Of a stretch of DNA of 64,000 bases, positions 14,901 to 63,516 are shown one piece after another. Source of the DNA: Thermochromatium tepidum ATCC 43061 (GTDB lineage: Bacteria; Pseudomonadota; Gammaproteobacteria; Chromatiales; Chromatiaceae). How positions within the stretch are numbered: the stretch's first letter is position 1; each line of letters begins with the position of its first letter. Location of the stretch: the NCBI RefSeq assembly GCF_009664085.1, contig NZ_CP039268.1:2093501-2157500 (forward strand), read 5' to 3'. The position numbers and the translations under genes were made by a program. Below the pieces are notes generated by a model. It did not search any database. It was not told the origin of the DNA and was given only the letters and a program-made list of their open reading frames with translations.

Positions 14901-14908
14901 CATTGGGC

Positions 14909-15026
14909 TAGGGAAACGCCGATTTATTCCATTCGTGGCAACACCTTCTCACGTAACCAATTGATTTTTTAGGAGCGGCTTCAGCCGCGATGGAGAGGAA
15001 CGCGATTTATTCAGCGCTTCCTTGAG
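14909..15026 (+). repeat. MITE-like dispersed repeat, copy 1
   Basis: This element of about 115 bp starts GGGAAACGCCGATTTATTC (14911) and ends GATTTATTCAGCGCTTCC. The ends form an imperfect inverted repeat. The interior holds TTGATTTTTTAGGAGCGG and the small palindrome GCGGCTTCAGCCGC. A nearly identical element, in the same orientation, lies at 63401-63516. It begins about nine bases after the holC stop codon. Confidence 0.8.
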
Positions 15027-35653: not shown

Positions 35654-35861
35654 CTGGGCATGGTTGGTGTGCGGTGAATCGGTACGCAAGGATTTCAGTC
35701 AATGCGGTCTGCGTGCTCAGCACATAAACGTGGCGACTGGATCCGATGCTGGTCATCAGTACGCTGTCACCTTAGATGGATCGACACCCTGGAAATTGTA
35801 GAGAGATTTGGTTCTCTATTGAAATTGCGATCTCCTTTGGTTAGCTTCCCAAACCAAAATG

Positions 35862-38036
<2,175 letters not shown>

Positions 38037-56824: not shown

Positions 56825-57390
56825 GGATCAGGCTCGATCTGAGTGTGGTGAAAAACGAGGGTCGAGCTGTCTATTTTACTACGGTAGGGAGACTCGGGGG
56901 CGGGGTGTCAGAACGCATGGCGACTGGAGGCTGTCGACCTACCCCGCCCGCAATCCTTTTGGACACGAATTGTTGTAGATAGAGTTGTCTGAACAAGGTG
57001 CCAGAAAGGCCGAATGAGTCGGATGACAGCTGGGTGCGGTTGTTCTCTGTCATACCGCCCGACGGCTCGGCCCATAGCGCTCGGATCGCTCCCGAGTCGG
57101 GAGCGCCGAGGCTTGGATCTCAGGTCGAATAGCGGGCGTCTTTGTGCAGACGGATGACCATGGGGCGTGGGGGCGGTTTTGGCCGCGATTTGGGGAGACA
57201 CGGTTGATTCAGCGTTTCCCGAGACCTCCTCGGGTTCAGTATGGACGTGCCGGGCGGCGCTCAGACTCCGCGACGCGCCCCTGGCGAACCGCGCGGGCGA
57301 GGAACACAGGATAGCTCCTTCGCGGCACCTGCCCACACGGGATGCAACAGGTAGGCGATGAGTCAGTCTGATGGAACGGCTTGCCGGAGA
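56825..57390. other. gap between hemE and an ABC ATPase gene, with a decayed repeat copy
   Basis: No supported gene over 566 bp. The part near 57168-57221 is a partial, diverged copy of the MITE-like repeat (listed separately). The remainder shows no domain on either strand. It probably contains the hemE promoter. Confidence 0.7.
57168..57221 (+). repeat. MITE-like dispersed repeat, degenerate partial copy
   Basis: GGGGGCGGTTTTGGCCGCGA is followed by GGGGAGACACGG and the end TTGATTCAGCGTTTCCC. This matches the right half of the repeat elements at 14909 and 63401, including the terminal GCGTTTCCC (complement of GGGAAACGC). The left half is not visible. Confidence 0.55.
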
Positions 57391-61353: not shown

Positions 61354-63402
61354 ATGAAAAAAACCTCCCGATCGTCGCACGTTCGCAATATCGGGGTTGC
61401 CGCTCATGTAGACGCGGGCAAGACGACGCTTACCGAGCGCATCCTCTTCTACACCGGCACCTCGCACAAGATCGGCGAGGTCCACGATGGCGCGGCCCAC
61501 ATGGACTATCTGGTCGAGGAACAGCGTCACGGTATCACCATCACCGCCGCCGTCACCCAGGCCCAGTGGCGCGAGCATCTGATCCAGCTCATCGACACCC
61601 CTGGACACGTCGACTTCTCGATCGAGGTCGAACGCACCATGCGCGTGCTCGATGGCTGTGTCATCGTGCTCGATGGTGTCCGGGGCGTCGAGCCCCAGAC
61701 CGAGACGGTGTGGCGTCAGCGCGCGCGCTTCAAGCTGCCGGCGCTGCTATTCGTCAACAAGATGGATCGTCCGGGCGCGGATTTTGAACGTTGTTTGGCG
61801 TCCGTCAAGCAGCGCCTCCATGTCGAGCCGGTGCCGATCACGGTTCCGGTGCCCGAAGTCGGCGGCGTGCTGCATTTGATCGACCGAACCCTGATTCGTT
61901 TCATCGGCGAACAGGGCGAGCAGGTCGTCGTTGAACCCTGTCCACCCGAGCTTTGGGAGCGTCATCGCGCGCTGCATGAGGCGCTGGCACTGGCTGCCGC
62001 CGAGGTCGAGGAGTCGCTGGCCGATCTGGTGCTCTCCGGCAGTGAGCCCTTGCCCGAGCAACTGCGGGCCGCCATCCGCACCGCCACCCTGGCCGGGACG
62101 CTCTTTCCCTGCTACGGCGGCAGCGCATTGCGCAACCTTGGTGTGCAGCCGCTGCTCGATGGCATCATCGACTTCTTGCCGTCCCCGCTCGACCGACCGG
62201 CGGCGCTTGCCGAGCGGCCCGACGGGACACACGAGGAGGTGGCCATGACACCAGACGGACCGCTCGCCGCGCTCGCCTTCAAGGTACAGCTTTGGGACGG
62301 GCGGCGCCATGTCTTTGTTCGTCTCTATCGCGGACGCCTCGCGCCGGGTGATGCGATCGAGTTCCTGACCGCCGACGGGCAGATCCGGCACGAACGGGTC
62401 GCGCGTCTGTTCGAGGTCGACGCCGGCAAGAAGACCAAACGCGATCTGGCCGAGGCCGGTGACATCGTGCTTTTGGCCGGACTGCGTTTTGCAACCACGG
62501 GCGATACACTCTGTACCCCGGGCCAGGTGCTGAGCCTGGAACGCATCCAGGCCCAGGATCCGGTGCTGGGTCTGGCCATCGAACCTGCGGCCGGCACCGA
62601 AGAGGACAGGCTCGTCGAGGTCCTGGACAAGGTCCGGCAGGAAGACCCAACACTGCGGGTTGAGGAGGATCCCGAGACCGGCCAGCGTCTGCTCCGAGGT
62701 ATGGGCGAGCTGCACTTACAGATCGTCATGGAGCGCCTGGAGCGCGAATTCGGTGTTGGTGTCCGCGCTGGACGTCCGTCTGTGGCCACGCGCGAGACCA
62801 TTACCCAACCGTCGGTGGCCGAGGCACTGTTCGCCCCGCTGCCCACACCGGATGCGCGCCAGCCCGATCCGATGGCACGCGCCGTCGTCAGCGTCCGACC
62901 ACGCGCGCGGGGGCGCGGCAATCTCGTGGAACTTCAACCGCGTTTGCTCCCTGAGGGTGCTCGATTCGAAGAGACGCACCTCCAGGCGATCCGCGAGTCG
63001 ATCGCTATCGCCCTGGCCAGCGGGCCGCTCCAGGGCGCTCAGGTGTTGGATGTGGCGGTCAGTGTCGATGAGATTGAGCTCTTTGGCGCCGGATCGACGC
63101 CGGCGACCACGGCAGCGGCCGTCGGTAAGGCACTGCGCAAGGCGCTGGAGAACGCGCACCCTGGGCTCATGACCCCCATCATGCGTCTGGAAGTGGTCGT
63201 CCCGGAACCGAACCTGGGTGCCGTGCTCGGCGATCTCCAGGCACGGCACGCCTTGATTCAAGCGACCGAGATCCAGGATGACCAGGCCACCATTCGCGCC
63301 GAGGCCGCATTAGAGCCGCTGCTCGGTTATGCCAACACCTTGCGCAGTCTGACTCAGGGACGCGGGCAGTTCAGTCTGGAGTTCGAACGCTTCGACCTCT
63401 AG
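61354..63402 (+). CDS. elongation factor G paralogue (EF-G2-like)
   Basis: The protein has 682 residues. The G domain starts VRNIGVAAHVDAGKTTLTER, has switch II DTPGHVDFSIEVERTM, and NKMD at the G4 site. Domains II to V follow, with GMGELHLQIVMERLEREFGV and a divergent domain IV (SVATRETITQPSVAEALFAP). Compared with housekeeping FusA, it has MDYLVEEQRHGITITAAVTQ where FusA has a different stretch, so I call it a paralogue. Such proteins act in ribosome recycling or other specialised steps, and the role here is not known. Its TAG stop touches the second repeat copy. Confidence 0.85.
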   Translation: MKKTSRSSHVRNIGVAAHVDAGKTTLTERILFYTGTSHKIGEVHDGAAHMDYLVEEQRHGITITAAVTQAQWREHLIQLIDTPGHVDFSIEVERTMRVLDGCVIVLDGVRGVEPQTETVWRQRARFKLPALLFVNKMDRPGADFERCLASVKQRLHVEPVPITVPVPEVGGVLHLIDRTLIRFIGEQGEQVVVEPCPPELWERHRALHEALALAAAEVEESLADLVLSGSEPLPEQLRAAIRTATLAGTLFPCYGGSALRNLGVQPLLDGIIDFLPSPLDRPAALAERPDGTHEEVAMTPDGPLAALAFKVQLWDGRRHVFVRLYRGRLAPGDAIEFLTADGQIRHERVARLFEVDAGKKTKRDLAEAGDIVLLAGLRFATTGDTLCTPGQVLSLERIQAQDPVLGLAIEPAAGTEEDRLVEVLDKVRQEDPTLRVEEDPETGQRLLRGMGELHLQIVMERLEREFGVGVRAGRPSVATRETITQPSVAEALFAPLPTPDARQPDPMARAVVSVRPRARGRGNLVELQPRLLPEGARFEETHLQAIRESIAIALASGPLQGAQVLDVAVSVDEIELFGAGSTPATTAAAVGKALRKALENAHPGLMTPIMRLEVVVPEPNLGAVLGDLQARHALIQATEIQDDQATIRAEAALEPLLGYANTLRSLTQGRGQFSLEFERFDL

Positions 63403-63516
63403 GGAAACGCTGATTTATTCCATTCCTAGCAAAACTTTCTCGCGTAACCCATTGATTTTTTAGGAGCGGCTTCAGCCGCGATTGAGAGACACGCGATTTA
63501 TTCGGCGTTTCCTTAG
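63401..63516 (+). repeat. MITE-like dispersed repeat, copy 2
   Basis: AGGGAAACGCTGATTTATTC starts just after the EF-G2 stop and the element ends GGCGTTTCCTTAG. The interior has TTGATTTTTTAGGAGCGG and GCGGCTTCAGCCGC, matching copy 1 at 14909-15026. The outermost words GGGAAACGC and GCGTTTCC are inverted, and both ends touch the dinucleotide TA. Confidence 0.85.

Follow-up and report, generated by a model that had tools for sequence, protein, structure and literature searches.

Two copies of a short palindromic repeat within one stretch of DNA raise the question of what kind of element they are and what could have moved them. The earlier note had taken them for near-identical MITEs of IS630/Tc1 type. 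The window, by which we mean the whole stretch of 64,000 nucleotides that was analysed, covers bases 2093501-2157500 of a genome that consists of a single contig of 2,958,290 bp. Using pattern scans and alignments, we were able to identify two complete elements of 110 bp each in the window, plus one right-half fragment. The repeat pair is real, as neither the central hairpin nor the tips occurred in any dinucleotide shuffle of the window and a reversed control pattern gave 0 matches in whole-genome tip scans. The two copies are 89% identical to each other, so that "near-identical" was too strong. A partial copy that had been placed near 57168-57221 is also genuine and proves to be the right half of a second subfamily, type B (alignment score 71; shuffle maximum 24). 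An Rfam search gave no match at the window repeats. Elsewhere in the window lies a TPP riboswitch (35857-35964; Rfam RF00059, 64.5 bits).

Table 1. Repeat features of the window; the limits of the elements exclude the target duplication.
Feature	Position in window	Strand	Remarks
Left target duplication of copy 1	14908-14911		CTAG; right partner diverged (TTGA)
MITE copy 1, type A	14912-15021	+	110 bp; tips GGAAACGC...GCGCTTCC
GTAG-class REP hairpin within copy 1	14969-14990	+	sequence TTAGGAGCGGCTTCAGCCGCGA
Right flank of copy 1	15022-15025		TTGA, a decayed duplication
Type-B copy, truncated	57167-57219	+	right half only; tip GCGTTTCC, then CGAG
Left target duplication of copy 2	63399-63402		CTAG; its TAG serves as stop codon of the upstream EF-G-like gene
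MITE copy 2, type A	63403-63512	+	110 bp
GTAG-class REP hairpin within copy 2	63460-63481	+	
Right target duplication of copy 2	63513-63516		TTAG

Genomic copies, target duplications and empty sites

The family occupies about 33 loci in the genome, namely 17 complete type-A copies (both window copies among them), 6 complete type-B copies, and about 10 truncated copies that include the window's partial one. A complete element is about 110 bp long, within the size of <300 bp usual for MITEs, and lacks coding capacity; its tips are GGAAACGCTGA...TCAGCGTTTCC. In the type-A consensus (GGAAACGCTGATTTATTCCATTCGTGGCAAAACCTTCTCACGTAACCCATTGATTTTGTAGGAGCGGCTTCAGCCGCGATTGAGAGGCACGCGATTTATTCAGCGTTTCC) the tips GGAAACGCTGA form 11-bp perfect inverted repeats; however, inward of the tips the left and right ends differ (GATTTATTC versus GAATAAATC). 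Mean divergence from the respective consensus is 5.4% for type A and 7.8% for type B, and the two consensus sequences differ by 19%. Because the copies are about 5% off their consensus, the family is not recent.

Most complete copies are bordered on each side by YTAR, and the target duplication is 4 bp long. Permutation predicts 3.6 exact 4-mer duplications among the 17 type-A copies, and 9 were observed (P = 0.002); for all 23 complete copies the count is likewise 9 (permutation P = 0.016). The other 8 type-A copies have an imperfect duplication. Left and right flanks match at position 4 in 14 of 17 type-A copies (P = 0.018) and in 19 of 23 complete copies (P = 0.003), and at position 1 in 12 of 17 type-A copies (P = 0.05). 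Flank pairs such as TTAG/TTAG and CTAA/CTAA are non-palindromic, so they are direct repeats and not a prolongation of the inverted tips.

Sites without the element were sought in relatives. The full-length element was found in none of 7 other genomes of the same genus and in none of about 200 genomes of the same family, with scoring in the large searches confined to a few top candidates per genome. The matches in those relatives span only the central 20-40 bases or REP-doublet stretches and never the full element. An "order"-level search yielded as many genomes as the family-level one, and those listed all belonged to that family, so that the range was not widened; an exact 37-base pattern from the interior matched no other species when run across genome contigs. 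We also joined the flanks of individual copies with the insert removed and searched them within the genus. For the copy at 2681794, the corresponding DNA of relatives G001 and G005 aligns across the insertion point without a gap at 82-84% identity (our genome minus the insert, GTTCC-TTAA-GTAAACGG; G001, GTTCC-TGAG-CGAACGG). G001 and G005 also lack the element in the spacer that separates an EF-G-like gene from ssb, where window copy 2 is inserted, and four relatives lack it at the 778780 site; at both of these sites the spacers have diverged, so that 2681794 is the only empty site clean to within a few bases. The earlier note would have given up its MITE-like family if the genome held no further copies, or if all relatives carried the element with no empty sites. 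Given the genomic copies and the absence of the element at the compared sites in relatives, neither is the case. Altogether, the copy number, inverted tips, target duplications, and empty orthologous sites support the MITE reading.

IS5-family ends and candidate transposases

Neither of the two transposase families searched for, DDE_Tnp_1 and Y1, was found in the window, in line with the earlier note, which had added that mobility would need a transposase elsewhere. That point was apt, but the genome yielded only a broken IS5 remnant. A DDE_Tnp_1 profile search hit nine places in the genome: 7 copies of one IS4-type element, one unrelated transposase at 160266, and this remnant. The remnant (1561827-1562570) is matched by NCBIfam transpos_IS5_4, and its surviving end reads TTAG followed by GGAAACGCTGAACAACTGCC. 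An intact parent IS5, which is common for such families but not required, was not found in the genome.

Relatives supply the complete form. In G182 we observe an IS5 of 1227 bp that runs from CTAG and GGAAGCGCTGATCTAT to GGAAACGCTGATTTAT and CTAG, and the IS5_4 transposases of relatives lie in elements with the MITE's tips and duplication. In a further set of 49 IS5 loci, mostly from proteobacteria, a perfect 4-bp duplication was counted where 12 or more of 18 tip bases matched; this gave 29 loci, and in 25 of them the duplication is YTAR. In many of these loci the left tip is GGAAACGCTGATTTATTC and the right tip is of the kind GGAAACGCTGAACAA/GAATAAATC, which is the asymmetry of the MITE. The tips and the YTAR target that the MITE shares with IS5-family elements of Chromatiaceae and other proteobacteria, together with the shared asymmetry, make its tie to IS5 strong. 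IS5-family insertion sequences (transpos_IS5_4; for example L150, L227, L230, and L232) are thus alike in their terminal inverted repeats, tip asymmetry, and target, but they are about 1.2 kb long and encode a transposase, whereas the MITE has 110 bp and no IS interior. As its interior has no match to that of IS5, the MITE is not a simple internal deletion.

We read the family as non-autonomous MITEs that have two IS5-family ends around a REP-pair interior and were moved in trans, at YTAR, by an IS5-type DDE transposase, and we put the probability of this reading at about 0.93. The ends, GGAAACGCTGATTTATTC on the left and GGAAACGCTGAATAAATC on the right, match those of an IS5-family element, and a transposase of that type acting in trans would insert the MITE at YTAR and duplicate those 4 bases. 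The most likely history is that an inverted pair of GTAG-class REP hairpins was caught between IS5 ends. The element would then have spread first as type B, with the pair kept, and later as type A, in which the left REP had decayed; this order is suggested by the alignment and is undated. Since only a broken IS5 remnant was found in the genome, the family probably no longer moves.

The REP core and rival movers

The interior of the MITE is not IS5 sequence but a GTAG-class REP with the core GTAGGAGCGGCTTNAGCCGCGA. This core has 82 occurrences in the genome at ≤2 mismatches, compared with 1 for the reversed control; most of them lie outside the MITE, and inverted pairs are frequent. Type B contains two REPs, inverted relative to each other, and folds into a single long hairpin (z = -4.4). 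Inverted repeats would give such a fold anyway, so it does not speak for an RNA function. The left REP of type A is too decayed to be recognised by the pattern, while the spacer CCCATTGATT is retained. RNA folding of the window copies gave z of about -2.6 to -2.8 on one strand each and weaker values on the other, and in both copies the GTAG tag has its G changed to T. Other genomes of the bacterial family contain comparable REP doublets that lack IS5 tips. At L329, L330, and L333, loci of other family members, REP doublets lie inside a longer palindrome that ends GAAAC...GTTTC, without IS5 tips or a YTAR duplication, and is possibly a related composite repeat.

This core could mean that the whole element is a REP or REPIN dispersed by a RAYT, in which case the mover would be a Y1 tyrosine transposase rather than a DDE enzyme and the outer flanks would be conserved by chance. 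The core does have the GTAG tag, imperfect hairpin, high copy number, and inverted pairing of such repeats, with type B being a REP doublet, and the genome carries a RAYT-like Y1_Tnp gene of 246 codons at 99109 (L079 1544-2281). Additionally, four type-A copies (genome 967656, 1510536, 83209, and 2325177; L017, L018, L021, and L023) break off at almost identical positions immediately 3′ of the REP hairpin, keeping the left tip and YTAR and running into unrelated DNA downstream with no duplication. Random decay would not favour a shared breakpoint behind the hairpin, a hint that comes from a small sample of four. However, the REP properties belong to the core and not to the whole element, many REPs of the same genome lie outside the MITE, and no GTAG-class REP flanks the Y1 gene. 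The complete copies have IS5 tips and 4-bp duplications, which to our knowledge are not expected of RAYT/IS200-type movement. Dispersal of the entire element by a RAYT is therefore very improbable. In a broader idea, the family would combine two mobile systems of unrelated origin, a REP doublet having been captured by IS5 ends; DDE transposition at YTAR would have spread the hairpins to gene ends across the genome, and the REP machinery, as the four cut copies hint, would act on the element as well. We regard this idea as tentative and rather doubtful.

The IS630/Tc1 assignment of the earlier note rested on a duplication of TA, and TA is indeed present in at least one flank of both window copies and in both flanks of copy 2. 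But CTAG/TTAG flank copy 2 and CTAG/TTGA flank copy 1, so that TA makes up just the two inner bases of a duplicated 4-bp YTAR, and the bases on either side of TA match as well, as the permutation of exact 4-mers indicates. The tips match IS5-family elements, and we met no non-IS5 transposase with such tips, which makes an IS630/Tc1-type MITE very unlikely. Mobilisation by the IS4-type element can be dismissed almost entirely. This element has 7 copies and borders some of the tips, and at loci such as 432417-433884 its transposase is enclosed by GGAAACGCTGA-like ends; however, comparison of its copies puts its true ends at GCATRGGTATCTACACAA and shows that it merely inserted into other small palindromic elements with GGAAACGCTGA tips.

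The IS4-type element (L065, L112, L113, L114, L115, L116, L117, and L066) is present in about 7 copies plus one deleted copy, often inside CCTCTCCC...GGGAGAGG hairpins, some of which have the MITE's tips. NCBIfam model NF011312 (FlhF, PRK14723) matches its transposase at L065 2075-3331 with its C-terminal part (E = 2e-37), suggesting that the model includes transposase sequence. We also observed other small elements with GGAAACGCTGA-like tips and different lengths and interiors at genome 1800341-1800471 (L071), 303051-303300 (L073), 1621740-1621803 (L081), and 2468854-2469057 (L078). The first two have TTAG on both sides, and several unrelated MITE interiors may thus share the same IS5 ends.

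Position at gene ends and comparison with known systems

The earlier note had placed both complete copies within 10 bases of a stop codon. Copy 1, downstream of an ORF with a HolC (DNA polymerase III chi) domain, starts 11 bases past one, and the left duplication of copy 2 itself provides the TAG of the upstream gene; the association, however, is not above expectation. Altogether, 7 of the 23 complete copies, including copy 2, lie exactly on a stop codon, against 21% of the non-coding YTAR sites of the window (8 of 38), with genes called by a simple ORF heuristic. We rejected special targeting of stop codons on this basis (P = 0.19). As 8 of 38 free YTAR sites are already stop codons, the closeness is what a YTAR target and avoidance of genes would yield. 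Insertion at YTAR can recreate a stop codon, so such elements can land harmlessly at gene ends. No T-run suggestive of a terminator was found behind the hairpin; judged from sequence, an effect of the element on transcript ends is possible.

What emerges is a defined MITE family, found in only one of the genomes searched, whose tips, target, and IS5 affiliation are identified. It illustrates in a specific case how REP hairpins can lie between the ends of an IS and travel with them, and would offer a second, DDE-dependent route of REP dispersal beside RAYT; otherwise it is genuine but unremarkable as mobile elements go.

The closest described case that we know of is MITEPsy1 of Pseudomonas syringae, an IS5-type MITE with the same target. 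According to the portion of PMC3189936 available to us, it is 100 bp long, contains no gene, has the tip GGAAGGTCTGAAAAAGCC, creates a 4-nt duplication of CTAG or YTAA, and is attributed to the IS5-family element ISPsy2. Its tip and interior differ in sequence from those of the present element, and its IS5 relative exists as intact copies, whereas here only the broken remnant was found. Transposition of MITEPsy1 was seen in a trap (PMC3189936), while that of the present element is deduced from sequence. That portion of the source reports no REP core in MITEPsy1; the present element has one.

GTAG-class REPs and BIMEs/REPINs have the same core and likewise occur singly or in inverted pairs, but here the doublet sits between IS5 ends, within a DDE-type element with a target duplication. 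GTAG-15 of A. variabilis and CGTC-1 of H. neapolitanus are described cases in which REP dimers regularly lie within a longer palindrome that is itself repeated (PMC3733652). In the portion of that paper available to us the outer palindromes are not assigned to an IS family, whereas here the outer part consists of IS5 ends. The present family is a further IS5-type MITE, and its distinctive feature is the REP-doublet core.
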